Shown here piece by piece: positions 8,637 to 30,355 of a DNA stretch of 44,645 nucleotides. Source of the stretch: a virus. The DNA is taken from positions 1 to 44,645 of IMG/VR virus record IMGVR_UViG_3300049003_000015. The stretch is one strand, 5' to 3'. Positions within the stretch are counted from its first letter, which is position 1; the number at the start of each line of letters is the position of its first letter. Made by a program: the position numbers and the translations under genes. The notes below the pieces were generated by a model. The model was not told the DNA's origin, ran no database searches, and worked only from the letters and a program-made list of their open reading frames with translations.

Positions 8637-8845
8637 GACAGGTCGTCAAGAAGCGCCTGCACTACCGCGTGATCGTGACGCTGAAGTCGGGCGCCGCGTT
8701 CGAGGGCGTCCTGTGGGAGCAGGACCGGGAGGCGCTGGTTCTGCGGGACACGCAAGCCATTCCCGGCCCTAATCAGGCGCCGGTTCCGGTCGACGGCGAG
8801 CTGCTGGTGTTCGTGGCCGATGTGGACTACCTACAGCGCCCCTAG
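8633..8845 (+). CDS. Sm-like fold small protein (70 aa)
   Basis: GTG at 8633 in a GTGA overlap. The strand pattern YRVIVTLKSGAAFEGVLWEQDREALVLRD, followed by a final FVADVDYLQ strand, resembles an Sm/LSm beta-barrel (compare the K-x-G-x-x-x-x-G-x-L signature). Such small barrels occur in actinophage head operons. RNA binding is possible but not shown. Its 3' end overlaps the leftward gene at 8831 by 15 bases. Confidence 0.72.
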   Translation: MRQVVKKRLHYRVIVTLKSGAAFEGVLWEQDREALVLRDTQAIPGPNQAPVPVDGELLVFVADVDYLQRP

Positions 8846-9028
8846 TACCGCCTGGGCTTGGACAAGCGCCGTGAGCGCATCGAGCAGGACGTACCGCCCG
8901 TTGGGATCCCGGATCTCCTCAGGCGCGGCTCCTGGGAATTGCCGCTCAAGATCTGCTCTCGCCGTTTCGTAGGCGACCTCCAGCCGACTAACGGTGCTGG
9001 TCAACCGCTCGATCTGGCCTTCTGGCAT
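8831..9028 (-). CDS. Leftward coiled-coil protein embedded in head operon (65 aa)
   Basis: Read on the minus strand from ATG at 9028 with AAGG upstream. An almost entirely helical product (IERLTSTVSRLEVAYETARA; LLDALTALVQAQAV) with one proline-rich break, likely a helical hairpin. Opposite orientation to every flanking structural gene, it sits between the Sm-like gene and the portal gene. It is the first of five such leftward inserts. Function unknown. Confidence 0.72.
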   Translation of the reverse strand: MPEGQIERLTSTVSRLEVAYETARADLERQFPGAAPEEIRDPNGRYVLLDALTALVQAQAVLGAL

Positions 9029-9057
9029 CCATAAACCTTATCGGACGGGGGAACCGC

Positions 9058-10476
9058 GTGGCGATCCTGTCTAACGGGGACCTGTCCCTGATCGGCCTCG
9101 CCGACTCTTCGCCGCGCAACTACGCCCAGGCCACCTACTACCCGAGCGTTGGGCTGGGCCAGGCTGGCGGCCAGTTCGCCGCCTACGGCGAGATCTACAA
9201 GCGGCAACTGTGGGTCGCCACGCTGGTCAACAAGCTGGCGTATGGCACGGCCCGGCTGCCACTGAAGGTGTATTCGCGCACCGACGACTCCCGCACCGAG
9301 GCCCGTGAGACGCCGTACGCGAAGCTGATCCGCACCCCCAACAGCCAGCATGACCCGTTCTTCTTCTGGCTGCACATCGCCTCCACATTCGAGCTCTACG
9401 GCGAGGCGCTGCTACTGAAGGTGCGCCCGCGTCCGGGTGCGGCTCCGCTGGAACTGTGGCCGATGCATCCGAGCCGGGTGACGACGGCCCGCGCTGATGA
9501 CGGCGGCTTGGTCTACCGGTACTTCTCTGGGTCGGCTAACGCGGCGTCCTACATCGAGTGGCCCGCCTCGGAGATCGTGCACTTCAGGTCGTACAACCCT
9601 GACGATCAGGTGCGCGGGTTGTCGCGGCTGGAGCCGCTGCGGGCGACGCTGCTGAACGAGGATGCGGCCCGGCGTGCGACGACGGCGTTCTGGAACAAGG
9701 GCGCCCGCCCCGGCATGGCGCTGAGCCACCCCGGTCAGCTGTCACAGCCTGCGCAGGACCGGCTCAAGGCGCAGTTCGACTCGATCGCTGCGGGCGCGGA
9801 CAACACGGGGTCGACGGTCGTGCTCGAGGAGGGCATGACCCCGCAGGTTCTGTCCCTGTCCGCCGAAGAGGCGCAGTACATCGAGACGCGGAAGCTCAAC
9901 CGCGAGGAGGTGTGCGCGGTCTACGACGTGCCTCCCCCGGTGGTGCACATCCTGGACCGGGCGACGTTCTCCAACATCACCGAGCAGATGCGGTCGATGT
10001 ACCGGGACACGATGGCCCCTCGCCTGTCGCTGTACGAGGCGGTGCTTGATACGCAGCTTCGCCCCGACTTCGACCCGCGCGGTGACCTGTACGCCGAGTT
10101 CCTGATGGACGAGGTGCTGCGCGGTTCCTTCGAGGAGCGTGTGTCCGCTTACGAGGTCATGACCCGGATCGCCGGCATGACGCCGGGTGAGATGCGCAAG
10201 CGGGAGAACCTGCCGTATCTCGGCCCCGAGACTGACCAGCTCTACGTGAACGCGGCGACGATCCCGCTGGGTGCGATCCCGAAGCGGGTGGTCATGCAGG
10301 ACGAGGCGCTCGTCGAGTTGCCGCCCGGTCAGTCGCTGCCGAGCAACCCGCCCCCGCCGCAGGCGGATGCGACTCCGGCGAAGTGCGTCGGCTGCGGAAC
10401 TGAAGCCAAGACATCCGCCCGCCAGTTGTGCCGGGCCTGCGAGGGCAGGCGCAGTCGGCAGAAGGAGCAGCCCTGA
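9058..10476 (+). CDS. Portal protein (472 aa)
   Basis: GTG start after GGGGGAA. It has the classic HK97-type portal features: an N-terminal clip/stem region with LWVATLVNKLAYGTARLPLKVY, then a Phage_portal core (ELWPMHPSRVT, IVHFRSYNPDD, GLSRLEPLRATL) and the conserved NREEVCAVYDVPPPVVHI segment near residues 280-300. The C-terminal tail adds a small zinc motif (CVGCGTEAKT, CRACEGRR). It forms the dodecameric DNA entry ring. Confidence 0.93.
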   Translation: MAILSNGDLSLIGLADSSPRNYAQATYYPSVGLGQAGGQFAAYGEIYKRQLWVATLVNKLAYGTARLPLKVYSRTDDSRTEARETPYAKLIRTPNSQHDPFFFWLHIASTFELYGEALLLKVRPRPGAAPLELWPMHPSRVTTARADDGGLVYRYFSGSANAASYIEWPASEIVHFRSYNPDDQVRGLSRLEPLRATLLNEDAARRATTAFWNKGARPGMALSHPGQLSQPAQDRLKAQFDSIAAGADNTGSTVVLEEGMTPQVLSLSAEEAQYIETRKLNREEVCAVYDVPPPVVHILDRATFSNITEQMRSMYRDTMAPRLSLYEAVLDTQLRPDFDPRGDLYAEFLMDEVLRGSFEERVSAYEVMTRIAGMTPGEMRKRENLPYLGPETDQLYVNAATIPLGAIPKRVVMQDEALVELPPGQSLPSNPPPPQADATPAKCVGCGTEAKTSARQLCRACEGRRSRQKEQP

Positions 10477-11477
10477 TGGATCTCGTGAAGAAGGCCGTTG
10501 GCCTCGTCGACACGGTGGAGACCGACAGCCCCAACGGCGCCTTCGAGGTGGTGCTCTCTGCCGCGACGCTCGACCGCGACGGTGAGGTCATCGACTCCCG
10601 CGCCTTCGAGCCGCTGCCGGACCACGTGCCGTTCGACATCGACCACGGCATGACCGTGCAGACCACCGTGGGTTCCGGTCAGCCGTACTACGCCGAGGAC
10701 GGGTCGCTCCGTGTCAAGGGCACCTTCGCGTCCACCCCACTGGCTCAGGAGGTCCGCACCCTCGTTGCCGAGGGGCACATCCGGACCACCTCAGTGACGT
10801 TCATGGCCGCCGAGCGCGTCAAGGACGAGAAGAGCGTCGACCACGTCGTGCGTGCCGAGTTGCTCAACGGCACGTTCACCCCCGTTCCGTCCAACCGCGA
10901 GGCCGTCGTGCTGTCGGCGAAGGCGCTGAACGTGGCCGTGGACGAGAAGGTCGGCGCTCGCAACTCCGCGTCGGACGCCTCGAAGATCCAGAGCGCTCAC
11001 GACGCGATGGTGGACCTGGGCGCCAACTGCCCCGGCGCGGCCAAGTCGGGCCGGAACGTCGCGGACATCTACTCCGCGCTGCGGGACGGCAAGGGGATTA
11101 TCTCGCCGAACGAGGCCCGAGCCCTTGAGGCCAAGGACATCGCTCCCGAGGTGGAGGCCACCCCGGAGTCGCTCGCTCAGGCGGTCGACGCCACCCTCGA
11201 CGAGGCGATGGTCCTGCTCGCCGACTTCGACACCTCCACGCTTCCAGCTGAGGTCGCTCAGGCGATCGCACTGCTCGTGGCCGCGGACAACGCGGTCGAC
11301 GAGCTCCTGACTGTGATGGGTCTGGCTGACCCGGACGAGGAATCGGAAACCGCCGACGAAGCCGCCGGGGCCGCCGCTGATGCCGCCGCCCCCGCCGCCA
11401 AGTCCGCCACCCCCGAGGACGTCCTGGCCCGGCTGGCCATCGCTGAGAACGCGGCCCGGCTCGCGTTCGGCGCCTAG
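10476..11477 (+). CDS. Prohead protease, HK97/U35 family, with C-terminal extension (333 aa)
   Basis: ATG at 10476 overlaps the portal stop, after AAGGAG. Residues 1-160 match the HK97 prohead protease: TLDRDGEVIDSRAF, FDIDHG (His57) and TSVTFM (Ser106). Residues 165-333 form a helical, Ala/Glu-rich region (TPESLAQAVDATLDEA; ADEAAGAAADAAAPA) that may be a fused scaffold-like domain, since no separate scaffold gene is seen. It matures the capsid by removing the major capsid delta domain. Confidence 0.9.
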   Translation: MDLVKKAVGLVDTVETDSPNGAFEVVLSAATLDRDGEVIDSRAFEPLPDHVPFDIDHGMTVQTTVGSGQPYYAEDGSLRVKGTFASTPLAQEVRTLVAEGHIRTTSVTFMAAERVKDEKSVDHVVRAELLNGTFTPVPSNREAVVLSAKALNVAVDEKVGARNSASDASKIQSAHDAMVDLGANCPGAAKSGRNVADIYSALRDGKGIISPNEARALEAKDIAPEVEATPESLAQAVDATLDEAMVLLADFDTSTLPAEVAQAIALLVAADNAVDELLTVMGLADPDEESETADEAAGAAADAAAPAAKSATPEDVLARLAIAENAARLAFGA

Positions 11478-11509
11478 CGCCACCCGCACCGCCTCCCTTC
11501 CGCAGACCA

Positions 11510-11524
11510 ACCCCTGAAAGGGGT
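11510..11524 (+). promoter_or_regulatory. Small hairpin overlapping the capsid-gene ribosome site
   Basis: ACCCCT-GAA-AGGGGT is a perfect six-base stem with a three-base loop, and its right arm contains the AAGGGG ribosome-binding site of the major capsid gene (ATG at 11533). It could tune translation or mark an mRNA end. Confidence 0.5.
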
Positions 11525-11532
11525 CATCAGTC

Positions 11533-12759
11533 ATGCCCACCATGAAGCAGCTTGAGGACCAGGGCCGCGTCCTCCTCGAACAGCAGAAGTCGCTGGTCGA
11601 GGACACGTCCCGCAACTGGTCGGAGAAGTCCGACGAGTACACCGCCCGCGAGGCCGACATCAAGTCGATCCTCGAGCAGCACCGCGCGCTCAAGTCGGTC
11701 AACTCCGACCCGTTCGGCGAGAACGGCGCGACCGCTGCCACCGAGGCCAAGCCCGAGGCGCCCAGGTCCATCGGCGAGGCGTTCACCTCGTCCAAGGGCT
11801 ACCAGAACGCGATCAGCACCGAGGTCAAGGGCTCCCAGTTCACCACCGGGGCCGTCGAGATCGACACGAAGGCCACGCTGACCACCGCTGCCGGTGGCGC
11901 CGGCCTGGTGCAGCCGCAGTACCTGCCCGGCGTGCTGCCGCTGCTGTTCCAGCGGCTCACCGTCGCCGACCTGATGCCGCAGGGCGCCGCGTCCGGCAAC
12001 TCCATCATCTACATGCGGGAATCGGCGGTCACCAACTCCGCCGCGACCGTCGCTGAAGGTGGACTGAAGCCGGCGTCGGACTTCAACTACGCGCAGGTCA
12101 CCGAGACGTTCAAGAAGATCGCGAACGTTCTCAAGATCTCCGACGAGATGCTTCAGGACGTTCCCTACGTCCAGTCGCAGGTCAACGGCCGGCTCGTGTT
12201 CTTCGTGCAGCAGAAGGAGGAGCAGCAGCTCCTCTCGGGTGCCGGCACCGGCTCGGAGCTCCTGGGTCTGCTCAACCGTTCCGGTCTGACGGCAGCGCAG
12301 GCCAAGTCCACGGACTCGGCGATCGACGCGATCTACAAGGACATCACCAAGATCCGGGTGAGCGCCTTCGTCGACCCGTCGGCGATCGTCATGCACCCGA
12401 CGGACTGGCAGAACATCCGGCTGCTGAAGGACGCCAACAACCAGTACTTCGCTGGCGGCCCCTTCACCGGTGCGTACGGCGTTGGGGGCGGCGGCATGAA
12501 CGACCGCACCATCCTCGGCAACGACGGAGCGCTGTGGGGTCTGCCGGTGGTCGTCACCACGTCGGCCACCGTCGGCACGGCGATCGTGGGCGCGTTCAAC
12601 ACCTGCGCCCAGGTGTTCCGCAAGGGCGGCATCACGGTGGAGGCGACGAACTCCAACGAGAACGACTTCCTCACCAACCTGATCGCGATCCGCGCCGAGG
12701 AGCGTCTCGCCCTGGCCGTCTACCGCCCGGCCGGCTTCAGCACGGTCACGGGCCTCTGA
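11533..12759 (+). CDS. Major capsid protein, HK97 fold (408 aa)
   Basis: ATG after AAGGGG. An N-terminal helical delta domain (residues 1-75, coiled-coil LEQQKSLVEDTSRNWSEK) is followed by the HK97 core: VQPQYLPGVLPLLFQRLTV, SIIYMRES, FKKIANVLKISDEMLQD, and the P-domain helix and C-terminal E-loop/A-domain regions (MHPTDWQNIRLLKD; RAEERLALAVYRPAGF). It follows the protease as expected and forms the icosahedral shell. Confidence 0.95.
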   Translation: MPTMKQLEDQGRVLLEQQKSLVEDTSRNWSEKSDEYTAREADIKSILEQHRALKSVNSDPFGENGATAATEAKPEAPRSIGEAFTSSKGYQNAISTEVKGSQFTTGAVEIDTKATLTTAAGGAGLVQPQYLPGVLPLLFQRLTVADLMPQGAASGNSIIYMRESAVTNSAATVAEGGLKPASDFNYAQVTETFKKIANVLKISDEMLQDVPYVQSQVNGRLVFFVQQKEEQQLLSGAGTGSELLGLLNRSGLTAAQAKSTDSAIDAIYKDITKIRVSAFVDPSAIVMHPTDWQNIRLLKDANNQYFAGGPFTGAYGVGGGGMNDRTILGNDGALWGLPVVVTTSATVGTAIVGAFNTCAQVFRKGGITVEATNSNENDFLTNLIAIRAEERLALAVYRPAGFSTVTGL

Positions 12760-12764
12760 TCGCC

Positions 12765-12911
12765 GTGCAGACGACGGTCAACAAGGACGGGTCGGTCACG
12801 ACCACCAACGACGACGAACACCCCACCGGGGTCGAGTCGCCGGAGGCGAAGGTCGTCGAGTCGGACGAGAAGCCCGCAGCGAAGACGCGGTCTCGCGCCG
12901 AGAGCAAGTAG
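12765..12911 (+). CDS. Small acidic protein after capsid gene (48 aa)
   Basis: GTG at 12765, five bases after the capsid stop. Charged and low-complexity (DDEHPTGVESPEAKVVESDE), ending KTRSRAESK. Small disordered proteins of this sort often follow actinophage capsid genes. The reading frame is open between two clear boundaries and is followed by a terminator-like hairpin. Confidence 0.65.
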   Translation: MQTTVNKDGSVTTTNDDEHPTGVESPEAKVVESDEKPAAKTRSRAESK

Positions 12912-12916
12912 CTCCA

Positions 12917-12952
12917 CTCCCCCGGCCCGGACTACTCCCCGGGCCGGGGGAG
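12917..12952 (+). terminator. Perfect 14-bp stem-loop after capsid gene
   Basis: CTCCCCCGGCCCGG (12917-12930) pairs perfectly with CCGGGCCGGGGGAG (12939-12952) around an eight-base loop. There is no T-tract, so it may act as an attenuator or an mRNA 3' stabiliser, raising capsid messenger over the downstream connector genes. Confidence 0.75.
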
Positions 12953-12971
12953 CCCAACTTGAGGAGGTTCC

Positions 12972-14433: not shown

Positions 14434-14450
14434 CCCCAAGGAGCATCCCC

Positions 14451-14750
14451 GTGGCCCTCATGCGTGCCCGTCACAACGTCCTGAACGTCGTCGCCGAGGT
14501 TCCAGACAACGACTACTACCGCGACAAGGGCTGGGCGAAGGTGTCCGATGACACCCCCACCACCGTCGAAGCGAAGCTTCAGGAAGAGGGCGACCGCTTC
14601 CTCGGCGTCGTCGTCTACGACCCGTCGGCGCACAGCGTGGAGGACGTGCAGGCGTACCTGGCCGACGCTCCCGAGGCTGAGGTGACCCGGGTGCTACAGG
14701 CCGAGCGCGACGGCAAGGCCCGCAAGACGATCCTCGGCGACGAGGGCTAG
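14451..14750 (+). CDS. Hypothetical protein in connector cluster (99 aa)
   Basis: GTG after AAGGAG. Acidic, with mixed strand and helix (VLNVVAEVPDNDYYRDKGW; ADAPEAEVTRVLQAERDGKAR). Its TAG lies within a CTAG shared with the leftward gene at 14747. A connector-associated role is possible. Confidence 0.72.
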   Translation: MALMRARHNVLNVVAEVPDNDYYRDKGWAKVSDDTPTTVEAKLQEEGDRFLGVVVYDPSAHSVEDVQAYLADAPEAEVTRVLQAERDGKARKTILGDEG

Positions 14751-14947
14751 TGCAGCAGGTCGTATGCCTGCGCGAGTAGCCACACCCCGATCAGAACCAG
14801 CCCGATAACCGTCAGGACGTACATAAGTCCGGTGTGCTTGGCGATGCGAGCCAGGTGCGCGGTCTGCGCGGCCTCCTGCTCGTGAATCTGGTGCAGCCAG
14901 TCGAGTTGTTCCTGCTGCGCCTGCTCGGACCGATCCGTGTAGCTCAC
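14747..14947 (-). CDS. Leftward tail-anchored membrane protein (66 aa)
   Basis: Minus-strand GTG at 14947. Residues 5-38 are a Gln/Glu/His-rich coiled coil (RSEQAQQEQLDWLHQIHEQE), followed by one C-terminal membrane helix at about 41-60 and a short tail. That topology puts the coil in the cytoplasm. It is one of five leftward genes in the late operon, and its stop shares CTAG with the convergent upstream gene. A membrane-active lysogen protein (exclusion) is plausible but unproven. Confidence 0.75.
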   Translation of the reverse strand: MSYTDRSEQAQQEQLDWLHQIHEQEAAQTAHLARIAKHTGLMYVLTVIGLVLIGVWLLAQAYDLLH

Positions 14948-14976
14948 GCCCGCATGGTCCGGTAGCGCCCCCCCGC

Positions 14977-14990
14977 TGTCTAGCTAGACA
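14977..14990. promoter_or_regulatory. Perfect 14-bp palindrome upstream of leftward gene
   Basis: TGTCTAGCTAGACA is a perfect inverted repeat in the 129-base gap between the leftward membrane-protein gene (start 14947) and the rightward major tail gene (15077). It could be an operator for either. The rest of the gap is pyrimidine-rich with a CCACCC repeat near 15042-15062. Confidence 0.5.
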
Positions 14991-15076
14991 CCCCCTCATT
15001 CTCGGCTCCGCCTCCGGTGGCGCCGCGCTCCACCCTGCCCACCACCCCACCACCCCACCACCGGAGGAACCCGGCC

Positions 15077-15562
15077 ATGCCCGCAACCGCCATCCCCCAG
15101 TCGCAGCGCTTCTTCCAGCCCGGCGTTGTCGGCATCCTGTTCCTGCCGGCCATCGCCGCCACGACCGGCATCCCCACCACGTCCGAGGTGACCGCCGGCA
15201 CGGACCTGACCCGTGAGGTCGACGACTGGTCTGGCTGGACCGTCTCGACGGCGTTCCTCGAGACGAAGGACGCCTCCACAGTCATCCGCCCGCAACTCGC
15301 CGGGGCGGTCACCTTCGAGGGTTCCTCGCTGACCTTCAACGGCTCGAAGAACGGCACCGACGCCCGGACGATCTTCACCCGCGGCCAGTCCGGGTTCATC
15401 ATCATCGGTGACGCCGGTGTGGCGACCGGCAAGAAGGCCGACGTCTACCCGGTGACCGTGGGCGCGGTCGCAAAGCTGCGCAACCTGGACTCGACGAACT
15501 TCAAGGTGCGGGTCGACTTCGGCATCACGAACGTGCCGTTCGAAGACATCACGATGCCGTGA
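15077..15562 (+). CDS. Major tail protein (161 aa)
   Basis: ATG after CCGGAGGAA. A beta-rich product (VVGILFLPAIA; SEVTAGTDLTREVDDWSGW; VTFEGSSLTFNGSK; ADVYPVTVGAVAKL) of the usual size for a siphovirus tube protein, directly before the G/GT chaperones and the tape measure, which fixes its identity. It polymerises into the tail tube. Confidence 0.87.
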   Translation: MPATAIPQSQRFFQPGVVGILFLPAIAATTGIPTTSEVTAGTDLTREVDDWSGWTVSTAFLETKDASTVIRPQLAGAVTFEGSSLTFNGSKNGTDARTIFTRGQSGFIIIGDAGVATGKKADVYPVTVGAVAKLRNLDSTNFKVRVDFGITNVPFEDITMP

Positions 15563-16050
15563 CCTCGCTCCGGGAACGCATCGAGGCGAAGGCGCGTCGC
15601 ACGGTTTCGCTGCCGATCCTGGTCGACGAGACCGAGACGGCGACGGCTGCCGTCACAGAGACCCTGCGGCAGCTGCAGAACCACCAGCGCACCGCCCCCG
15701 ACGAGCCGGACGAGGCTTTCCGGGCGGAGGAGCAGCGCCTGCGGGATGCCGTGCAGGACGCGGTGAAGGCTCAGCAGGATCTTGTCGTTCATGTCAAGCT
15801 CCGCGCGCTGCCGGCGGACGAGTGGGAAGCCGTGTTCGGCGCGGTAGAGCTCGACGAGAACGGCGAAGCGGACCTCGACGAATGTCGGGCTGCGGTACTG
15901 GCCGCTTGTTGTGTGGATGAGGATCTGCGCGACGAGCAGTGGTGGGAGCAGCGGCTGTCCACCTGGACCAAGGGCGAGAAGATCGCGGCCGACTTCATCC
16001 TGCTCGACCTGAACCTCGGAGCGCCCGCCCGGTCTCCGGGAAAAGGCTGA
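15559..16050 (+). CDS. Tail assembly chaperone G (163 aa)
   Basis: GTG at 15559 in a GTGA overlap with the tail tube gene. Helical and acidic (LRERIEAKARRTVSLPILVD; EEQRLRDAVQDAVKAQQDL; EWEAVFGAVELDENGE; EDLRDEQWWEQRLSTW). It ends just after a GGGAAAA slippery site at 16038-16044. It coats the tape measure during tail assembly. Confidence 0.88.
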   Translation: MTSLRERIEAKARRTVSLPILVDETETATAAVTETLRQLQNHQRTAPDEPDEAFRAEEQRLRDAVQDAVKAQQDLVVHVKLRALPADEWEAVFGAVELDENGEADLDECRAAVLAACCVDEDLRDEQWWEQRLSTWTKGEKIAADFILLDLNLGAPARSPGKG

Positions 16051-16388
16051 GGCGCGACCAGCTTTACGCCGATCGGATGGCGTACTGCGGGCCGCGCGGC
16101 ATCGAACTGGCCGCTTTCCTTCGCTGGTCGGAGGCGTCCCAGCGCGCCGCCCTCGACTGGATGAAGTTCGAAGGCCAGCGCTGCAAGAACTGCGGCACCC
16201 ACCCCGACGAATGGGCCGAGGACCAGTTCGCCTACCACGCCCACCTGACGCAGTGCAAAGGCTGCCAGCGGCAGCAGGGCCTCTCGGAAGCGAGCAGGTC
16301 GGGCACAGAGCGCGGCGTGTTCGCCGTCATGGCGCACGGTCCAGCGGCTGTGTGCCCGCAGTGCCGACCGGACGACGATGACGACTGA
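15559..16388 (+). CDS. Tail assembly chaperone GT by -1 frameshift (276 aa)
   Basis: Slippage of one base back at GGGAAAA (16038-16044; zero frame reads G GGA AAA) moves ribosomes into the frame that stays open to TGA at 16386-16388. The added 114 residues hold a conserved helical start (LRRDQLYADRMAYCG), a zinc-like cluster (CKNCGTH..H..CKGC) and a CPQC near the end. Coordinates cover both frames. This matches the universal G/GT arrangement of long-tailed phages. Confidence 0.85.
16038..16044 (+). other. Programmed -1 frameshift site GGGAAAA
   Basis: A canonical X-XXY-YYZ heptamer (G GGA AAA) sits two codons before the G stop codon (TGA at 16048), and the -1 frame continues for 114 codons. 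Confidence 0.88.
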
Positions 16389-16402
16389 GAGGGGTTCGCT
16401 GG

Positions 16403-19210
16403 ATGGCGCTCTCCCGCGACGTCGTCATCCGTCTCCTGGGGGACGCCAGTAGCGCCGTAGCCGCCACGAAGGCCGCCGCAGATGCCGCCGAGGTGTCCGT
16501 GGCCGCCTACCGGAAGGCGGAGCGGGAGCAGCAGCGCCAGCAGGCCGCGGAGAAGGCTGCGCTGGAAACCCGCCGTCAGGCCATTCAGGAGGCCAGTCAG
16601 AGCGCCGTGATCCTGGGCGGGGCGATGCTGGCCGCATTCGGGATCGCCGCGAAGGCCGCGATGGACTTCGACAAGTCCATGTCGGCGGTGGGTGCGGCGA
16701 CGATGGCGAACGCCGAGCAGATGGGCCAGCTTCGGCAGGCCGCGCTCGATGCTGGCGCCGCCACCATGTTCTCGGCGACGGAAGCCGCAGACGCAGAGAC
16801 CGAGCTCGCCAAGGCAGGCCTGAACACGGCCGACATTCTCGGCGGGGCGCTCAAGGGTGCACTTGACCTCGCTGCGGCCGGTCAGCTCGACGTCGCCAGC
16901 GCGGCCGGGATCGCGGCGACGACGCTCAAGCAGTTCCAGTTGTCCGGCAGTCAGACGTCCCATGTCGCGGACCTGCTGGCCGCTGGTGCGGGTAAGGCGC
17001 TGGGCTCGGTGCAGGATCTGTCCGAGGGCCTGAAGTACGTGGGACCGGTCGCGCACGGCATGGGCGTCTCTATCGAGGAGACCACTGGCGCGCTGGCCCT
17101 GTTCGCATCGAAGGGCATCCTCGGCGAGCAGGCGGGCACGTCGCTGCGCGGCGTCATCTCTTCACTGTCGTCCCCGTCGATGGAGGCGCAGAAGGAGCTC
17201 GACAAGCTCGGCATCTCCGTCTTCGACGCACAGGGCAAGTTCAAGGGCTTGGGCGGTGTCGCGGGCGAACTCCGGGGCGCGATGTCGGGGCTGACCCAGG
17301 AGGAGCGTTCCGAGGCCCTGGGCCGCATCTTCGGCAATGCCCAGCTGACGGCGGCGCAGGTGCTGTATGACGCGGGCTCCGAGGGCGTCAAGAAGTGGAC
17401 CGATGCGGTCAACGACTCCGGATACGCACAGGAGCAGGCCGCGCGGCTCACGGACAACCTGGCCGGCGACATCGAGCGCCTAGGCGGGTCGATCTCCACG
17501 GTGCTGATCGACGGCGGGTCGAAGGCCACCGGCGTGCTTCGGTTCTTGGTGCAGGCCGCGACGGATGGCGTTAACTCGATCGGCACCCTGCCGGGACCGT
17601 TGCAGGCGGTCGGCATGGGCCTGCTCGGCGTGGTCGGTGGGGGCACGCTGCTGCTGGGCGCGCTGGGCACGATCATCCCGCGGATTCAGGAGGCCCGGGC
17701 GGCGCTTGAGGCTCTCGGCCCGGCCGGGGTGAAGGCCAACGGCGCGTTGGGGATGGTCGGCAAGGCTGGCGGTGGGGCCGCACTGGCGCTGGTGGGCATC
17801 ACGTTGCTGTCGGACGCCTTCGATGCGATGCACCCGCCGACGGAGATCGTGACTGCGGACGCCACCGAGTTGACGCACAGGCTCGAGGAGCTCGGCGGCT
17901 CGTCGGCGACACTGTCAAAGGCGCTCCGTGAGACCGGCTTGGACGAGCTGATCGATCAGTTGAGCATGACCGAGAACCACACCTACGACACCATCACGGG
18001 CTTGGGTGACCTCGGCAAGGCCGCGGGCATGACCAACCTGTCCTTCGGGATCATGGAGGACGCGGCGCAGCACGCCAATGATGGCTTCAAGCAGGCGCAG
18101 CAGTCCATCAAGGACACCGATTCGGCGCTGGCTGGAATGGTCAACGGCGGCAGCGCGGAGGCTGCGGCCAAGGCGACGATGCGGCTTTACGACGCCTGGA
18201 CGAAGGCTGGTGGCACCGCGCAGGAGTTCAAGGAGAAGTTCCCCGACACAGTCGCCGCGATGGAGGCGTACTCGGCCACCAGTCAGACGGTGGTCAGTGA
18301 CACGGGTGAGATCACGACTGGTCTGGGTGAGGCGGCGTCGGCGGCCGACATTCTGAAGACCGCTCTCGACACTCTGAACGGCGCGCAGATCAATCAGGTC
18401 GCCGCGAACATTGCGTGGACGCAGACGCTCGCCGACCTCAAGATCGCGGCGGCCGACGGGTCCAAGAGCCTGGATCTGAACACGAAGGCTGGCGCGGACA
18501 ATGCGGCGCAGTTCGTGGACGCCGCTAAGAAGGCCAGCGATTTCTCGCAGGCGGTCGCCGACACGAAGGGGCTTGAGGCCGGCCGCGCGGCTCTCGGTGG
18601 TTTCCGCGACGCCCTCGTCGAGCAGGCCGTCAAGGCGGGGTTCTCTCGCGATTCGGTCATCGGGCTGATCGACACGATCCTTCAGGTTCCGAAGGACACC
18701 CCGACTGCGGTCACTCTGCATGACCAGGCGACGCCCGGCATCGAGGCCGTGAATGCGTGGCTGGATCGGGTCAACGGGAAGACCGCAACCACCACGGTGA
18801 CCAACAACGTGATCACCGTGTTCAAGCAGCTCGGGCAGCCCTACAAGGAGACCGGATCAGGCGGCAACCCGATCGGCCTGCCGCCTGTTCGTGCAGCCGG
18901 TGGCCCAGTGTGGCCCGGTCAGCCGTTCCTCGTCGGCGAGAAGGGTCCAGAGCTCGTGCAGTTCGGCGCCTCTGGATTCGTCACTCCCCACGACATGACG
19001 AAGCGAGCCATCGCCGCGGGGTCTGGCATTCCCGTGGGTTCCGGTGGGGCGTCTAGCACCGTAGGCCCAGCCATCGACTACGACCGACTCGCCGCTGCCG
19101 TGTCGGCTGGATCTCGGGGTGGCGTGAGCATCGGAACCATCGTCACGCAGAAGAACGAAACCGGCTATGAGCTCGCGCAGACCCTCGCGTTTGATGGGCG
19201 CACCCGATGA
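16403..19210 (+). CDS. Tape measure protein (935 aa)
   Basis: The longest gene, after the G/GT pair. The N-terminal 75 residues are Ala/Lys/Glu coiled coil. A TP901-type tape-measure core follows (FSATEAADAETELAKAGLNTA; VASAAGIAATTLKQFQLSG; GEQAGTSLRGVISSLSSPS). Hydrophobic segments occur at about 66-84, 388-415 and 450-470, expected for a protein that inserts in the host membrane during DNA entry. With about 1.5 angstrom per residue the tail would be roughly 140 nm. Confidence 0.93.
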   Translation: MALSRDVVIRLLGDASSAVAATKAAADAAEVSVAAYRKAEREQQRQQAAEKAALETRRQAIQEASQSAVILGGAMLAAFGIAAKAAMDFDKSMSAVGAATMANAEQMGQLRQAALDAGAATMFSATEAADAETELAKAGLNTADILGGALKGALDLAAAGQLDVASAAGIAATTLKQFQLSGSQTSHVADLLAAGAGKALGSVQDLSEGLKYVGPVAHGMGVSIEETTGALALFASKGILGEQAGTSLRGVISSLSSPSMEAQKELDKLGISVFDAQGKFKGLGGVAGELRGAMSGLTQEERSEALGRIFGNAQLTAAQVLYDAGSEGVKKWTDAVNDSGYAQEQAARLTDNLAGDIERLGGSISTVLIDGGSKATGVLRFLVQAATDGVNSIGTLPGPLQAVGMGLLGVVGGGTLLLGALGTIIPRIQEARAALEALGPAGVKANGALGMVGKAGGGAALALVGITLLSDAFDAMHPPTEIVTADATELTHRLEELGGSSATLSKALRETGLDELIDQLSMTENHTYDTITGLGDLGKAAGMTNLSFGIMEDAAQHANDGFKQAQQSIKDTDSALAGMVNGGSAEAAAKATMRLYDAWTKAGGTAQEFKEKFPDTVAAMEAYSATSQTVVSDTGEITTGLGEAASAADILKTALDTLNGAQINQVAANIAWTQTLADLKIAAADGSKSLDLNTKAGADNAAQFVDAAKKASDFSQAVADTKGLEAGRAALGGFRDALVEQAVKAGFSRDSVIGLIDTILQVPKDTPTAVTLHDQATPGIEAVNAWLDRVNGKTATTTVTNNVITVFKQLGQPYKETGSGGNPIGLPPVRAAGGPVWPGQPFLVGEKGPELVQFGASGFVTPHDMTKRAIAAGSGIPVGSGGASSTVGPAIDYDRLAAAVSAGSRGGVSIGTIVTQKNETGYELAQTLAFDGRTR

Positions 19211-20049
19211 GCGACACCGCGGTCACGTGGGGCGGCATCACTGTCGGCGGTGGCGGCGACTACCACGTGGAGGAGATCACCGGCTGGGACGACCTGCCCG
19301 ACATCACCTCCTACGACCAGGCGCGCAGCCGCGGGCACGGTGACCACACAGGTAGCCAGTTCGCGCGGGCCCGCATCGTCACTGTGTCCGGCAGCATCGC
19401 CTCCCCGTCGGCTCGTAACGCGCTGGCGCGGACGTTGATCGGGGCGTCCACGGTCGAGACGGATCTGCTCGAGGATCTGACCATCGAGACGTTCGGTCAG
19501 GCGCTGACCGCGAGCGCCCGGCTGATTCGCCGGTCGCTGCCGGTGGGCGACAACTACGCGGCCGGCTCGGTGCCCTTCGCCCTCCAGTGGAAGTGCCCGG
19601 ACCCCCTGCGTTACGCGGCGCCGCAGCCGCCGATCTCGACGGGTCTGCCCACGTCGGCAGGCGGCCTGGCGTATCCGCTGGTGTACGGGCTGACCTATGG
19701 CGCTGCTGGCACCCCCGGTCAGGTGACGTTGACCAACACGGGTACGGCTGCGGCGCCGTTCGTGGCGATGGTGACCGGCTCCCTGCCCAGCGGCTTCGAG
19801 GTGTCCTCGGGTGGTCAGCGCATCCGGTACGAGACGGTCGTGTCGGCCGGGGAGACGCTGACGATCGACACGGGCGAGGGTACGGTGCTGGCGCAGGGGA
19901 CGGCGGATCGTCGGGCGAATCTGACGGTGGCTGACTGGATTCAGGTCCCGCCGCTGTCGACGATCACGCTGCAATTCACCTCACTGGGTGGAACCTTCGA
20001 CCCGGCGGCGACGCTGACTGTTCCGGCGTTCCGGTCCGCGTCGTGGTGA
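19207..20049 (+). CDS. Distal tail protein (Dit-like) (280 aa)
   Basis: ATG overlaps the tape measure stop. The N-terminal half (TWGGITVGGGGDYHVEEITGW; GDHTGSQFARARIVTVSGSI; ARTLIGASTV; LQWKCPDPLRYAA) fits the Dit/phage tail family, and the C-terminal half is a galectin-like beta domain (VYGLTYGAAGTPGQVTLTNTGT; FEVSSGGQRIRYETVVSAGE). Dit forms the hub between tail tube and tip. Confidence 0.85.
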   Translation: MSDTAVTWGGITVGGGGDYHVEEITGWDDLPDITSYDQARSRGHGDHTGSQFARARIVTVSGSIASPSARNALARTLIGASTVETDLLEDLTIETFGQALTASARLIRRSLPVGDNYAAGSVPFALQWKCPDPLRYAAPQPPISTGLPTSAGGLAYPLVYGLTYGAAGTPGQVTLTNTGTAAAPFVAMVTGSLPSGFEVSSGGQRIRYETVVSAGETLTIDTGEGTVLAQGTADRRANLTVADWIQVPPLSTITLQFTSLGGTFDPAATLTVPAFRSASW

Positions 20050-20053
20050 CGGA

Positions 20054-20233
20054 CTAGAGAGCGCTTCGGCAACGTCCGGGGCGCCATAAATCGTTGCCGT
20101 GCGCCTGTGAGAGTGCGCAATGCGGGCAGGTCGGAGGCGGCAGCGGGCCGCGCGGTAATGCCGCCGCGATTGTCCGACGCACGTCGTCGGGCAATGCCCG
20201 CATCACGTCGTCATGCGTCACGAGACCGTCCAT
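20054..20233 (-). CDS. Leftward small protein with CPHC motif (59 aa)
   Basis: Minus strand from ATG at 20233, with a TTG two codons earlier as an alternative. An acidic helical first half (HDDVMRALPDDVRRTIAAAL), then LPPPTCPHCALSQAHGNDLW and a basic end. Cys-x-x-Cys plus His suggests a zinc site. It lies between Dit and the next tail gene, opposite to both, four bases from the Dit stop. Function unknown. Confidence 0.65.
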   Translation of the reverse strand: MDGLVTHDDVMRALPDDVRRTIAAALPRGPLPPPTCPHCALSQAHGNDLWRPGRCRSAL

Positions 20234-20278
20234 GACCAAAGCATCCCACCCCGCCCGACGAGATGAGGTGCTTTTCGA

Positions 20279-21400: not shown

Positions 21401-22140
21401 CGCAGGAGGCCGGCACCCCGGCAGGGTTCTGGGACCGCGTCGAGCAGATCGCCAAGAAGGTCGTCAACGACTACGTCCGCGCCGGCCTGCTGAACAGCGC
21501 CTCAATCTCCAGTGGTGGCCTGACTATCAAGGGCGGTTTCCTGCGCTTCCTGTTTCCTGCCTCCCTGGGCAGCGGCCTGGCCGCCTTCTTCGGGGACATC
21601 AAGAACGAGGCCGACGGCAGCTACCTCGGCACGGGGCTTCTGATTCAGGACCAGAACGGGCGTGACATCGCACAGCTCCGCACCGACGACGCCACCGGGA
21701 CGACGGTGATCATGCTCAACGACGCCCAGGGCAACAACGTCATCTCGACGTTCAACGCGCCGATGGGCCTCAGCCGGCCGCTCCTGCAGGGTGGCTTTGT
21801 GCCGACCCGGTTCGCCGACTTTACGGTGGCCACCACCTCGGCGACGTTCGAGACGCTTTTCCGAGGCACCCTGTACAAGCAGAACCCAGCCATGTTCGTG
21901 CGGACGGCCGCGTCGATGGACACCTCCGGGACCACCGGGGAGCTACGCGTTCTCGTCAACGGAAACCAGCTCGGGTCCGTCGCCACGGTCGGGTTCACTG
22001 TGGGCACCTTCGACTTCGGCACAGCAGTCATTGCCGGTGCACACATGGACTTCCTCAACGTGGAGATCCAGGGTCGGCGCACCGGCGCCACCGGTGCCCT
22101 CCGGGTCGCCCCCGGCACGTGGATAGGGGGCAGTCTCTAG
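21397..22140 (+). CDS. Minor tail protein (247 aa)
   Basis: GTG in a GTGA overlap. An N-terminal helix (FWDRVEQIAKKVVNDYVRAG) is followed by Gly-rich beta repeats (SISSGGLTIKGGFLRFL; SYLGTGLLIQDQNGRDIAQL), then a beta-sandwich C-terminus. This pattern is typical of tail-tip trimers. Its TAG lies in a CTAG shared with the leftward gene at 22137. Confidence 0.75.
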   Translation: MTQEAGTPAGFWDRVEQIAKKVVNDYVRAGLLNSASISSGGLTIKGGFLRFLFPASLGSGLAAFFGDIKNEADGSYLGTGLLIQDQNGRDIAQLRTDDATGTTVIMLNDAQGNNVISTFNAPMGLSRPLLQGGFVPTRFADFTVATTSATFETLFRGTLYKQNPAMFVRTAASMDTSGTTGELRVLVNGNQLGSVATVGFTVGTFDFGTAVIAGAHMDFLNVEIQGRRTGATGALRVAPGTWIGGSL

Positions 22141-22592
22141 CCGTTCACGATCGAGAGGTCGGGAGCGCCCGGGCCGGCTGGTGGTGCGGCGGGCGGCGGG
22201 GCGACAGGCGGCTCCCCGGGATTCACCCGGGGCGGTGCAGGCGTGTACTGGCCGTCCTCGCCTGTAGTGCCGATCGACTCGGGGTCGACGACTGCCGGCT
22301 GGGGTGCCTGCGGTTCGGGTGTGGTCACGGCCCCAACGGTAGCGGCCGACACCTGCGGCGCGGGCGGCTCGACTGCAAGCGGCGGGGTCTCCGCAGGCAC
22401 CTCGACCGATGCGATGGCCGGCGCGTCGGTGGTCGTCGCTGCGGGCGTGTCCGATGGGGCCACGTACACGGACTCGTCGGACGTGGGGTGCACGTCGCCG
22501 CCGATCGCTCCGGACGCAAACGCGCCACCGACGCCGAGCGCCAGAACTCCCGCGACGCCTGCGCCGACGACCGGCAGCGACAACTTCCTCAC
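22137..22592 (-). CDS. Leftward secreted Pro/Ala/Thr-rich protein (151 aa)
   Basis: Minus strand from GTG at 22592, with a strong AAGGAGA ribosome site upstream. Residues 1-27 are a signal peptide or N-terminal anchor (MRKLSLPVVGAGVAGVLALG), with no lipobox cysteine. The remainder is low-complexity Pro/Ala/Thr/Val (PPLAVEPPAPQVSAATVGAV) that should be extended and outside the cell. It is one of five leftward inserts. A TTGACG lies upstream on its strand, but no convincing -10 partner was found. A surface role in the lysogen is an inference. Confidence 0.78.
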   Translation of the reverse strand: MRKLSLPVVGAGVAGVLALGVGGAFASGAIGGDVHPTSDESVYVAPSDTPAATTTDAPAIASVEVPAETPPLAVEPPAPQVSAATVGAVTTPEPQAPQPAVVDPESIGTTGEDGQYTPAPPRVNPGEPPVAPPPAAPPAGPGAPDLSIVNG

Positions 22593-22677
22593 GACTTCTC
22601 CTTCAGTAGCGGACTGCTCACCGTAGCGGCGGCCGTCAAGTTTCGGAACTACCTACTTCACAGAGGAGCGCCGCCGC

Positions 22678-22845
22678 ATGGCAGATACAGCAGACGGGCC
22701 GGGCTGGGATCTCGCCTACTACGGCGAGCAGCTACCAGAGGTCCAGGCCCGGTCCGCTGCCCAGGGCCTCCGATTCCGGCAGGTCATCACCCCCGACGGA
22801 TTCGAGCAATGGGTCAAGTGGGCCAATGATGAGGACGCCGCCTGA
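22678..22845 (+). CDS. Small protein before tail-fibre gene (55 aa)
   Basis: ATG after AGAGGAG. An acidic, Trp/Tyr-containing product (GPGWDLAYYGEQLPEVQARS; FEQWVKWANDEDAA) whose stop overlaps the next gene's ATG at 22845. No family recognised; tail-associated by position. Confidence 0.68.
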   Translation: MADTADGPGWDLAYYGEQLPEVQARSAAQGLRFRQVITPDGFEQWVKWANDEDAA

Positions 22846-23906
22846 TGGCGAATGCTCTCGGCACACCCGGCGGCGTCGTCTCCGACGAGAACCACCGGCT
22901 CGCCATCGCCGCCATGATCGCGGCCGGGACCACCATCCTGGATGCGCGACTCGGTGTCCTCGTGGGCCCCGGCACGACCGCCCTGGTCACCGGCACGTCT
23001 GCGACCGGCACCATGACTGTGGGCATCGCCGCGCACACCGTCGTGTCCTCCCGCTCCACCGGAGACGGCGCGTACCTAGGTCCGACGCTGGAAGCGGCGA
23101 CGACGGTCAACATCGCGGCCGCGCCCGGCTCCAACTCGCGCATCGACGTCGTGTACGCCAAGCAGAACGACACGGGCAGCACCGTCAGCCCCGACACGGG
23201 CACCACTCAGCCGCTGTACGGAGTGGTCACGGGCACCGCATTGGTGTCCCCCACGAAGCCTCCGATCCCCGTGGGCGCGGTGGAACTCGCAACCGTCCAG
23301 GTCGCGGTCGGCGCCACGTCCACCAACGGCGCCGGGGTGACGATCACCAACACGATTCCGCAGACCGTGGCGCGCGGCGGCATCCATCCCGTCCGCTCCA
23401 CCGACGCCACAGCCGGCGCCTACGTCGACCAGTACCGCGGGCACCCGACGCGCGGCCTCGAGCGATGGGACGGCACCCAGTGGACGACGGCGAACCCGTT
23501 TACCTGGACGGACCTGCTGCGCTCCACGTCGTACAACTACACGCCCCCCACCGGCTCGTCCTACGTCGACCTATCTTCGGGGAACTTCACCGTCAGCAAC
23601 TTGCCGCCGGGCCGTGAGATCGAGTTCGAGTGGAAGGCGCCGCTCATCGCCGCGTCCACGAACGCGACACTGGTCCTGCGGATGCTGATCGCCGGCACAC
23701 AGGCGGACACGAACGTCTTCTCAACCAGCACCGCGCCGATGTTCGGTCCCGGCCGGCTGACCGGTTCCGCGGTGATCCCGTCGGGCGGGTCAGTGCTAGT
23801 GCAGGTGCAGGGCTTCAACGGCGTGGGTGCCACGGCCACGCCGATCCAGGCGGGTACCGCGTTCGCCGCCTCAGGCGCCGTCGTCCTCCGCTACCGGGTC
23901 CGGTGA
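22845..23906 (+). CDS. Minor tail / tail-fibre protein (353 aa)
   Basis: ATG at 22845 in an overlap. It has an N-terminal region typical of actinophage receptor-binding proteins (NALGTPGGVVSDENHRLAIA; MTVGIAAHTVVSSRSTGDGA; SNSRIDVVYAKQNDTG), a central RYWDGTQW-like segment (GLERWDGTQWTTANPF) and a beta-rich C-terminal head (LPPGREIEFEWKAPLIAAST) likely to bind host glycans. Confidence 0.8.
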   Translation: MANALGTPGGVVSDENHRLAIAAMIAAGTTILDARLGVLVGPGTTALVTGTSATGTMTVGIAAHTVVSSRSTGDGAYLGPTLEAATTVNIAAAPGSNSRIDVVYAKQNDTGSTVSPDTGTTQPLYGVVTGTALVSPTKPPIPVGAVELATVQVAVGATSTNGAGVTITNTIPQTVARGGIHPVRSTDATAGAYVDQYRGHPTRGLERWDGTQWTTANPFTWTDLLRSTSYNYTPPTGSSYVDLSSGNFTVSNLPPGREIEFEWKAPLIAASTNATLVLRMLIAGTQADTNVFSTSTAPMFGPGRLTGSAVIPSGGSVLVQVQGFNGVGATATPIQAGTAFAASGAVVLRYRVR

Positions 23907-24841
23907 TGGCTATCACCGGCCCGGACATCTCACATCACCAGACCTCGGCGGACTTCGCCGCCGTCGCTCGGGCCGGGCATCAGTTCGTCGCCCTGAAGGT
24001 CACCGAGTCGACCAACTACGTGGACCCGACGTTCAGCGCGCGTCGTGCCGCCGCGCACGCGGCCGGGCTGGTGGTTGGTCTGTACCACTTCGCCCGCGCA
24101 GGGAACGCCGCGGGCGAGGCTGCCTGGTTCCTCAAGCAGCTCGGTCAGGTGCAGCGCGGGGAGTTTCTCGTCCTCGACTGGGAGGTGCCCGCAGCCGATC
24201 CGGTCGGCTGGTGCCGCGCGTGGCTGGAGGCGGTGCGCGCAGCGACGGGGATTCGGGCGCTGATCTACATGAACAGCACCGCCGAGCGCGGCTCCAACTG
24301 GTCACCCCTGATCGCCGACTACGGGCTGTGGCTCGCGAAGTACGACGGCAGCCAGGCGCAGACCGCGGTGACGCACTGGTCCGCGCTGGCCATGAAGCAG
24401 TACACGGACAAGGGCACGGTGCCAGGAGTCCCCGGCCCCTGCGACGTGAACGTGTTCTACGGGACCACCGACCAATTGCGCGCCTATGGCGCGGGAGGAG
24501 ACGACATGCCCACTGCCAAGGAGATCGTCGATGAGCTGATGAACCGGCCCATCGACTTCACCTACCGAGACCCGGCAACCGGCGCCGGTAAGCCCTCGAG
24601 TACCAGCGTGCGCCAGCTGCTCGCCGACCTGTACGCGCAGACGTTCTGGGGCATGGGGTCGGTCGACTGGGGGCCGGGCCTCGCTTTGCAGCTCCGGGAC
24701 CTGGTGGCCGCCGCTCATTCGGGCGCGGCGATTGACCCGGCTGCCATTCAAGCGGCGGCGAGGGCCGGTGCCGAGGAGGCCATTGCGCAGGGCGTGGACG
24801 TGAACGTCAACGTCGGCGGCAGCAAGCCGGCCAGTTCCTGA
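23906..24841 (+). CDS. Endolysin, GH25 muramidase (311 aa)
   Basis: ATG at 23906 overlaps the upstream TGA. Residues 1-195 form a glycoside hydrolase family 25 barrel: GPDISHHQ (Asp7), FVALKVTEST, GLYHFAR and LVLDWEV with the catalytic Asp91 and Glu93. The C-terminal part (about 200-311) is a separate helical region with TSVRQLLADLYAQTFWGMGS and an Ala-rich helix before a Val/Asn tail, likely a cell-wall or multimerisation module. No signal peptide, so release depends on a holin. It cleaves the N-acetylmuramyl-N-acetylglucosamine bond of peptidoglycan. Confidence 0.92.
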   Translation: MAITGPDISHHQTSADFAAVARAGHQFVALKVTESTNYVDPTFSARRAAAHAAGLVVGLYHFARAGNAAGEAAWFLKQLGQVQRGEFLVLDWEVPAADPVGWCRAWLEAVRAATGIRALIYMNSTAERGSNWSPLIADYGLWLAKYDGSQAQTAVTHWSALAMKQYTDKGTVPGVPGPCDVNVFYGTTDQLRAYGAGGDDMPTAKEIVDELMNRPIDFTYRDPATGAGKPSSTSVRQLLADLYAQTFWGMGSVDWGPGLALQLRDLVAAAHSGAAIDPAAIQAAARAGAEEAIAQGVDVNVNVGGSKPASS

Positions 24842-24859
24842 CCGGCCGGGAAGCGTCCG

Positions 24860-25144
24860 GTGGATTGGCTCGGGGCGCTCCCGATCGGACAACTGAGCGC
24901 GGGGGCTCTGCTCGCCATCGTGGTGCTGGCGATCCTGCGCGGCAATCTCGTGCCCCGGCAGCAGTTGCTGGACACGCAGGCCGACCGGGACAAGTGGCGG
25001 GAGACGGCCGAGAAGTCGCAGGCCATTCAGACGCAGCTCGGCATTTCGGTCGAGAAGGTGCTCGTCGCGGTGGAACTGACCAATCACGCCATCTTGGACA
25101 TCCGTGAGTTTGCTCGCCGCGCGGACGAGCAGGAGTCGCCGTGA
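24860..25144 (+). CDS. Membrane protein with coiled-coil tail, lysis cassette (94 aa)
   Basis: GTG at 24860, 18 bases after the endolysin stop. One hydrophobic helix (residues 13-28), then a charged coiled coil (QQLLDTQADRDKWRETAEKS). This topology is common next to actinophage endolysins; candidates are a holin, antiholin or spanin-like factor. Confidence 0.72.
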   Translation: MDWLGALPIGQLSAGALLAIVVLAILRGNLVPRQQLLDTQADRDKWRETAEKSQAIQTQLGISVEKVLVAVELTNHAILDIREFARRADEQESP

Positions 25145-25338
25145 TGTGGCCGTTCACCCGTCGCCGTCCTGCGCGCCCTTCCCCGGACGCGGTAGCGGCA
25201 GCCGCACATGCGGACCGTGCCTTGATCGACGCGAAGAATCTTGACGGCAAGGTTGATCGGGCTGTCGAACTAGCGGCGGAGATTAAGCGCGTGAATCACA
25301 TCGCCCTGGCCGTGGCGAAATCCATTCGGGGAGTTTGA
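25144..25338 (+). CDS. Small protein, lysis cassette (64 aa)
   Basis: ATG at 25144 overlaps the upstream stop, with a GTG directly before it. MWPFTRRRPARPSPD followed by an Ala/Lys helix. The MWPF plus arginine opening with a helical remainder is recurrent in actinophage lysis cassettes. Function unknown. Confidence 0.7.
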   Translation: MWPFTRRRPARPSPDAVAAAAHADRALIDAKNLDGKVDRAVELAAEIKRVNHIALAVAKSIRGV

Positions 25339-25674
25339 GTGACCAGGTTCTACGCGCAGCCCGCGTTCTGGCTGTACTTCGCGGGCTGGCTGCCGTACAC
25401 GCTGCACGTTCTGGTGTACGGGCTCGGGTCGCCGTGGTGGCGGTCGGAGATCGGCCGGGCGTTCTTCCTGTCGAAGCTGGCCTTGTGCCTGGTGTTCTCG
25501 CTGGTCCTGACTGTGTTCCTGTTCGGCCAGTACGACGGGCTGCCTGCGGTGCGCGCCGTCCTGCTGGGGCTAGTCGCGTGCGCAGCCTGGTATCAGCTGT
25601 CGGTGACCGTCCGCGTTCAGCGGCGGCCCCACCTCGATGAGGCTTCCCACCGCCGCCGCAGTACCGACGTCTAG
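25339..25674 (+). CDS. Holin-like three-helix membrane protein (111 aa)
   Basis: GTG at 25339. Hydrophobic segments at about residues 9-28, 44-63 and 70-88 and a basic C-terminal tail give the class I holin topology. It is 0.5 kb after the endolysin. The stop lies in a CTAG shared with the leftward gene at 25671. Confidence 0.7.
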   Translation: MTRFYAQPAFWLYFAGWLPYTLHVLVYGLGSPWWRSEIGRAFFLSKLALCLVFSLVLTVFLFGQYDGLPAVRAVLLGLVACAAWYQLSVTVRVQRRPHLDEASHRRRSTDV

Positions 25675-26117
25675 GCCAGGGCGGCTAGCGCCTTCTCGTA
25701 CTTGACCGCCAGCCGTTCCCGGGTCGCCTCGTCCAGCAGTGCCACCCGCTCAGGGTCCGTGTTGCTGGCGATGTCAGCCAGCTTGACCCGCAGCGCGATC
25801 GGGTTTGTCTTCACGCGGGCGTAGTACGCCAACCGGGGCTCGTTCGGACGGTGCGTGATAGCCACAACCGCCTCCACGACCTCGGGCGGGAATGCCTGGC
25901 GCAGGTCCGAGAGGACTGACGGGTCGCCGTCCTCCACGACGTCATGCAGCCAGCCGACCGCCTGCGTGACCTCGCCTTCCCCTGCCAGGCGCCGCACAAC
26001 GTCCTCGACGTGCGCCCTTACGTAGGACCGCCCCGCCTTGTCGACCTGGCCCATGTGCACCGACCAAGCACAGAGCCGCGCCTGACTCAAGAGCGACAGA
26101 CGCTCCGCGATCTCCAT
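25671..26117 (-). CDS. Leftward HD hydrolase, small alarmone hydrolase-like (148 aa)
   Basis: Minus strand from ATG at 26117 with GGAGG eight bases before it. The protein carries the full RelA/SpoT-type hydrolase pattern: HMGQVDKAGRSY (21-32), His36, His58-Asp59, Glu62-Asp63 (LHDVVED) and KLADIASN with Asp115 and Asn119. The His-Asp to Glu-Asp and Asp to Asn spacings equal those of the known (p)ppGpp hydrolases. No synthetase or regulatory domain is present, so it resembles a stand-alone small alarmone hydrolase that would remove 3'-pyrophosphate from (p)ppGpp or related nucleotides. It lies opposite to its lysis and holin neighbours, which suggests separate expression. A nucleotide phosphohydrolase of another specificity is the alternative. 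Confidence 0.85.
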   Translation of the reverse strand: MEIAERLSLLSQARLCAWSVHMGQVDKAGRSYVRAHVEDVVRRLAGEGEVTQAVGWLHDVVEDGDPSVLSDLRQAFPPEVVEAVVAITHRPNEPRLAYYARVKTNPIALRVKLADIASNTDPERVALLDEATRERLAVKYEKALAALA

Positions 26118-30278: not shown

Positions 30279-30355
30279 AACAGGCGTCTAATCGTGGCCT
30301 GGGATTTCTTAGACACTGAGCGTGCATCGCCTAGACATCCGTCTCAGGAAGTCGC

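Follow-up and report, generated by a model that had tools for sequence, protein, structure and literature searches.

The 44,645-base IMG/VR virus record IMGVR_UViG_3300049003_000015, a metagenomic contig analysed here over its whole length (the window; GC ~67%), has no close relative among named phages. Gene calling places the virion and lysis genes in a rightward block from ~6.3 to 30 kb (terminase, portal, protease, capsid, connectors, tail, endolysin and holins), and downstream of this late block lie an integrase gene, a leftward putative repressor gene and rightward early genes. This study concerns five leftward open frames set into the late block and designated below by their left coordinates; the credible genes among them are likely to be separate morons. 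The original prediction had listed them as five minus-strand genes, each between two structural genes, and all five frames were recovered at their coordinates. Four lie between rightward virion genes, but 25671 lies between putative holin/lysis genes. The frames and the features directly attached to them are as follows.

8831..9028, minus strand: open frame of 65 amino acids, coiled-coil-like, a probable moron, flanked by a small rightward gene (8633-8845) on its left and by the portal gene (9058-10476) on its right
8846..9044, no strand assigned: 199-bp insertion comprising nearly the whole 8831 frame and 16 bp upstream of its ATG, TAAGGT included
9035..9040, minus strand: TAAGGT, -10-like element ending 6 nt before the 8831 ATG, a leaderless arrangement
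14747..14947, minus strand: gene of 66 amino acids with a charged N-terminal half and a C-terminal transmembrane helix; homologue in related records L162/L163
20054..20233, minus strand: open frame of 59-61 amino acids, a doubtful gene, within a 229-bp spacer (20050-20278)
22137..22592, minus strand: gene (probable) of 151 amino acids, a hydrophobic N-terminal signal/anchor followed by a Pro/Ala-rich stalk; counterpart in L162
22620..22625, minus strand: TACGGT, -10-like element of the 22137 gene, at a distance of 27 nt from its start (22592) and with a Shine-Dalgarno-like GAAGGAG behind it
25671..26117, minus strand: gene for a 148-amino-acid small alarmone hydrolase (RSH HD domain; phrog_990), between putative holin genes

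An open frame alone is weak evidence for a gene at ~67% GC because stops are rare: they were estimated at ~1 in 44 codons, and by estimate a 60-codon open frame in a 200-bp gap is expected by chance about a quarter of the time. The coding test used was a codon-hexamer score per codon, for which the rightward genes gave a mean of +0.43 (minimum +0.10) and the shadow frames within them a mean of -0.22 (maximum +0.19). The scores were +0.53 for 25671, +0.26 for 14747, +0.02 for 22137, -0.11 for 8831 and -0.39 for 20054; the 8831 frame is nevertheless the best of its own six frames, a borderline result. No homologue of 8831, 14747 or 20054 was found in 50,697 phage records. Taken together with the comparisons described below, 25671 and 14747 are firmly genes, 22137 and 8831 are probable genes, and 20054 is doubtful and probably no gene. 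Four of the five predicted genes are therefore credible, and the view that their products are unlike virion proteins, i.e., that accessory genes occupy gene junctions of the late operon, is supported.

The 25671 frame is open further upstream through alternative starts, but the ATG at 26117 is the most sensible of these. Its product, previously described as an HD hydrolase, could be assigned more precisely from fold and residues to the small alarmone hydrolases (SAHs), as it consists of a single ~150-aa HD domain with the metal/catalytic residues and its model matches SAHs. It belongs with the phage phosphohydrolase family phrog_990 (E 7e-36), and its best sequence match is PDB 7smg, a (p)ppApp hydrolase from Bacteroides caccae (E 6.6e-15). 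The best fold match of the AlphaFold model (pLDDT 95) is again 7smg (TM 0.84, E 2e-7), with Mesh1 and other SAHs coming next and >1000-fold weaker by E-value. Residues H35, H57-D58, E61-D62, D114 and N118 (metal/catalytic; A2 numbering without the initiator Met) are invariant in 20 aligned sequences, and the GQVDKAG stretch is closer to GQIDKAG of 7smg than to QYRKSG of Rel. Relatives of 25671 were found in Streptococcus, Mannheimia and Pasteurella phages, the phage groups in which aph1 has been described (PMC12226406); a search of 12 related records, fragments among them, did not recover the gene.

Aph1 is described as an immunity protein against prophage MuF toxins; it hydrolyses the (p)ppApp that they make, with cross-protection against non-cognate toxins (PMC12226406). 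By sequence and model, the predicted activity of 25671 is closest to that of the (p)ppApp hydrolases serving as prophage immunity proteins. Most likely, the HD protein would degrade toxic (p)ppApp, or alarmones related to it, and would shield the lysogen from alarmone-making toxins or abortive-infection enzymes, a protective role that we infer. As the record holds no RelA/SpoT synthetase domain, 25671 is an orphan, and the Apk2-IapK-Aph1 module is not present. An orphan small alarmone hydrolase gene in a phage of probable actinobacterial host is a new detail; it opens to testing the question of whether prophages equip their hosts against alarmone-making toxins when they do not carry the toxin themselves.

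For 14747, a leftward homologue with 73% identity is present at the equivalent junction, before the tail-tube gene, in L162/L163, and dN/dS in this comparison is 0.44 for the annotated frame, the others giving 0.74-1.5. The same junction carries a different short coiled-coil/membrane gene in G001 and an unrelated 83-aa leftward gene in L002. The 22137 gene also has a leftward counterpart at the equivalent junction of L162 (L162:8980-9417), the sole match among 17 related records: identity is 38% (E 0.003, low complexity), and the two products share a hydrophobic N-terminus, a Pro/Ala-rich composition and an NPGEPPVAP motif.

At the 8831 junction, the small upstream gene and the portal gene abut (-16 to +35 nt) in 69/70 relatives. 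Comparison with the empty site of L002 (TAG-ACGGGGGGACCGC-GTG, with 13 bp between TAG and GTG) gives exact boundaries, the window reading TAG-[199 bp]-ACGGGGGAACCGC-GTG. The inserted DNA thus lies between two genes that are contiguous in relatives, as expected of a moron, and the last codons and stop of the 8831 frame belong to the resident upstream gene, beyond the 199-bp insertion. This exact insertion of a frame plus a -10 element shows how small a moron can be. The 8831 product has a weak similarity to Rv0078B-type antitoxin (E 0.007), below the Pfam cut-off. The sole other occupied site is in L081, where three unrelated leftward genes (L081:1887-3194) lie at the junction between the portal gene and the preceding gene; the last stop of that insert overlaps the upstream stop by 4 nt (TTAG).

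The situation is different for 20054. None of the six frames of its spacer looks coding, no -10 element and no homologue were found, and in L162 the spacer is missing, the flanking genes overlapping by 4 nt. As the 229-bp gap is the sole support for 20054, it is not to be counted as a gene. The spacer is flanked by 8-nt GTGGTGAC repeats at 20043 and 20279 (p 0.036 before correction), but flanking direct repeats were rejected as insertion scars, since 20054 is the only insert with a repeat.

These data bear on the possibility that only 14747 and 25671 are true genes and that the short frames mostly arose by chance in high-GC spacer. The frequency of 60-codon chance frames at such GC, and the poor codon scores and missing homologues of 20054 and 8831, are what it would lead one to expect. 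However, the 8831 insertion has a -10 element directly before the ATG, and 22137 has a counterpart in L162 by position and composition; we therefore regard this explanation as unlikely for the set, while accepting that 20054 is probably such a frame.

The relatives hold different subsets of these inserts: L162 has 14747 and a 22137-like gene and lacks the 20054 spacer, whereas L002 lacks 8831. The comparison with relatives proposed in the original prediction thus found individual inserts present or absent at equivalent junctions, and these different subsets indicate that the inserts were gained and lost one by one. In most of the ~30 related IMG/VR records examined the late operon is free of leftward genes. 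Counting these records together with nine annotated phages (Lton, PFR1, Trine, Gustav, Shoya, BAjuniper, Kumotta, 1191A and Puppers), most have none or one, and each of the nine phages has at most one credible leftward case in the virion block. Four leftward hypothetical annotations in Arthrobacter phage 1191A (OR088901.1, 4313-5627) were discounted, as they overlie a tblastn match of the rightward major capsid gene and are likely an annotation error.

We then consider when the leftward genes might be expressed. The following features bear on the lifestyle of the phage.

30241..30279, plus strand: attP candidate of 39 nt, identical but for 2-3 mismatches to the 5' half of tRNA-Met(CAT) genes from actinobacteria
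30423..31634, plus strand: tyrosine integrase (PF00589, E 4.8e-13; phrog_1, E 7.6e-52)
32028..32459, minus strand: putative immunity repressor gene, named from position and orientation, with TAAGGT (32470-32475) 10 nt before its start

The attP candidate lies directly upstream of the integrase gene, and its tRNA-Met(CAT) matches come from two actinobacterial genomes. A portal-based scan of genome contigs returned seven relatives, none of them close and all in actinobacterial genome records; a scan by tail-tube alignment returned zero. The integrase, the attP candidate and the actinobacterial tRNA and portal matches make it probable that the phage is temperate and infects an actinobacterium.

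In actinobacteria the SigA -10 element usually takes the form TANNNT, of which the window has only 28 copies. Such a hexamer precedes three leftward starts at a distance of no more than 45 nt, namely those of 8831, 22137 and the putative repressor gene, where ~0.0145 per start is expected by chance, and 0/58 rightward genes have one; these figures are partly post hoc, as TANNNT was chosen after viewing the first upstream regions. In all three cases the leftward hexamer is TAMGGT, and of its TAAGGT version the window has just two copies, one at 8831 and one at the putative repressor gene. Among the relatives, TANNNT also precedes leftward genes of L002, of G008 and, twice, of G001, where it stands before the membrane gene and before a methyltransferase-like gene. 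The L081 and G008 genes and the G001 methyltransferase, examined once the motif had been chosen, gave two hits and three misses; the annotated phages were likewise examined afterwards. The G001 methyltransferase-like gene (L166:5991-6809) is leftward, ends the late operon and has TACGGT 35 nt upstream of its start, and the G008 gene (L174, reverse strand, 16562-16945) encodes a leftward membrane/secreted protein with TATGTT 30 nt upstream. Just before the latter hexamer lies a near-perfect palindrome, AGGTGTAGTTACACCT, which might be an operator.

As the promoter-like element is common to two of the five frames and the putative repressor gene, expression of the leftward genes in lysogens is plausible from the sequence. 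The search for a shared promoter gave a promoter-like element at two frames, three frames having no recognisable -10, and the predicted lysogen programme remains plausible as to lysogen expression, whereas its coordination is unsupported. A coordinated programme would mean that a shared regulator turns on all the leftward genes together in the prophage, as a single regulon. Sharing of TAMGGT by two of the five with the repressor gene, and restriction of TAAGGT to 8831 and the repressor, speak for such a regulon. However, three of the five have no TAMGGT, the relatives carry different insert subsets, the inserts being gained and lost independently, and the search for a common operator found none: TGTCTAGCTAGACA, a 14-bp palindrome upstream of 14747, was rejected for this role, as it occurs once and lacks conservation in L162. 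We consider a coordinated programme improbable.

The explanation that we favour, and consider likely, is that the leftward genes are separate morons, acquired singly, read against the late operon and most likely transcribed in the prophage. Each accessory gene would have entered directly after the stop codon of a late gene that reads rightward. Its transcription would most likely take place when late expression is off, starting for 8831 and 22137 at the -10-like elements described above and for 14747 and 25671 at other promoters. Late transcription on induction would then cross the leftward genes and shut them off. The two membrane/secreted proteins would act at the cell surface, e.g., in superinfection exclusion. 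Several observations, besides the post hoc choice of motif, weigh against this explanation: (i) 14747, 20054 and 25671 have no TANNNT within 45 nt upstream and are moron-like by position only; (ii) neither of the L162 leftward genes and none of the three in L081 has TANNNT upstream, and in the annotated phages it is present at 3/7 leftward genes; (iii) no -35 consensus was seen; (iv) the putative repressor gene has no family match and is assigned by position and orientation only; and (v) a terminator scan found no intrinsic terminator downstream of any leftward gene, when morons classically have one.

The last point is related to the arrangement of the stop codons. The stops of 14747, 22137 and 25671 overlap the stop of the upstream gene on CTAG (14747-14750, 22137-22140 and 25671-25674), and the L162 stalk gene and the membrane gene of G001 are joined to their upstream neighbours in the same way. 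In the window, the upstream gene terminates in CTAG at 4/5 insert junctions, compared to 2/65 other rightward genes (Fisher p 8e-5); at the 8831 junction, the CTAG of the upstream gene differs from the insert's own stop. The window contains 36 CTAG against 52 expected with dinucleotides kept; the stronger avoidance suggested by base composition (36 against 131) was rejected as overstated. Because the stops are shared through CTAG, three junctions leave no room for a terminator. With tails overlapping and no terminators, transcription in the two directions must collide or alternate, and alternation between lysogeny and lytic growth is the simplest inference. It is quite doubtful that this tail-to-tail, terminator-less layout is itself functional, lysogen transcripts being antisense to virion genes and late transcription silencing the inserts in a distributed mutual-exclusion switch; if it were, the inserts would tighten lysogeny and exclude related phages. 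Least credible is that the unterminated leftward transcripts act mainly as antisense RNA against the late genes, so as to curb leakage from the late genes or to shut out superinfecting relatives, the proteins being of secondary importance: the tail-to-tail stop overlap, with no space for a terminator and none detected, and the prophage antisense RNA STnc6030 of BTP1, which lies over structural genes and gives superinfection exclusion (PMC7067206), are in line with it, but 25671 and 14747 are conserved as proteins and Rho-dependent termination is invisible in sequence.

Elsewhere in the window, a probable rightward HNH-type endonuclease gene with CxxC motifs, missed by codon-based calling, lies upstream of the terminase gene (5534-6202). 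Between the genes for the tail tube and the tape measure, two frames (15559-16050 and 16077-16388) occupy the tail assembly chaperone position, and the product of the second has Cys-x2-Cys motifs. Across the window Rfam gave zero matches and a Sigma-70 scan nothing relevant; matches to the PADLOC defence library were all marginal and were disregarded.

Several known systems resemble parts of this arrangement. The 25671 product shares its predicted fold and metal/catalytic residues with Aph1, the (p)ppApp hydrolase immunity protein of the Apk2 MuF prophage toxins, and with the B. caccae SAH 7smg, and the GQ-I/V-DKAG motif with 7smg. However, the Apk2-IapK-Aph1 system includes a linked synthetase toxin (PMC12226406), whereas 25671 stands alone and opposite to the late operon. 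The mycobacterial and Gordonia prophage defence systems of Sbash and CarolAnn also involve small leftward lysogen-expressed genes, some with their own promoter (PMC6426606); those of CarolAnn are repressor-linked and at the genome centre, whereas the window inserts lie within the virion operon. Prophage morons are defined as DNA between two genes contiguous in relatives, with their own promoter and typically a terminator (PMC3029335, PMC7067206); in Salmonella prophages, moron loci that run antisense to lytic genes have been recognised (PMC7067206). The window inserts are alike in their placement between genes but differ in that no terminator was detected and several are present in one operon.

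The closest parallel to the number of inserts is provided by the Cluster O mycobacteriophages (Corndog, YungJamal and relatives), whose rightward virion/lysis operon is interrupted in up to four places by small leftward genes (PMC4351075). A SigA-like leaderless promoter (PL2) has been predicted for one interruption, and comparison with relatives has shown gene 60 of YungJamal to be a leftward insertion (PMC4351075). The class of leftward inserts was thus already known, and the claim that five in one late operon is unusual holds with respect to the relatives of the window but is tempered by Cluster O. The Cluster O inserts are unmatched to the window proteins; the Cluster O phages are not obviously temperate, whereas the window has an integrase and an attP candidate, and in the window the stops overlap on CTAG at three junctions. 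The window therefore represents an unusually dense case of a known phenomenon, and no new kind of system, and provides a dense, comparable example of temperate-phage passenger genes inside a virion operon.

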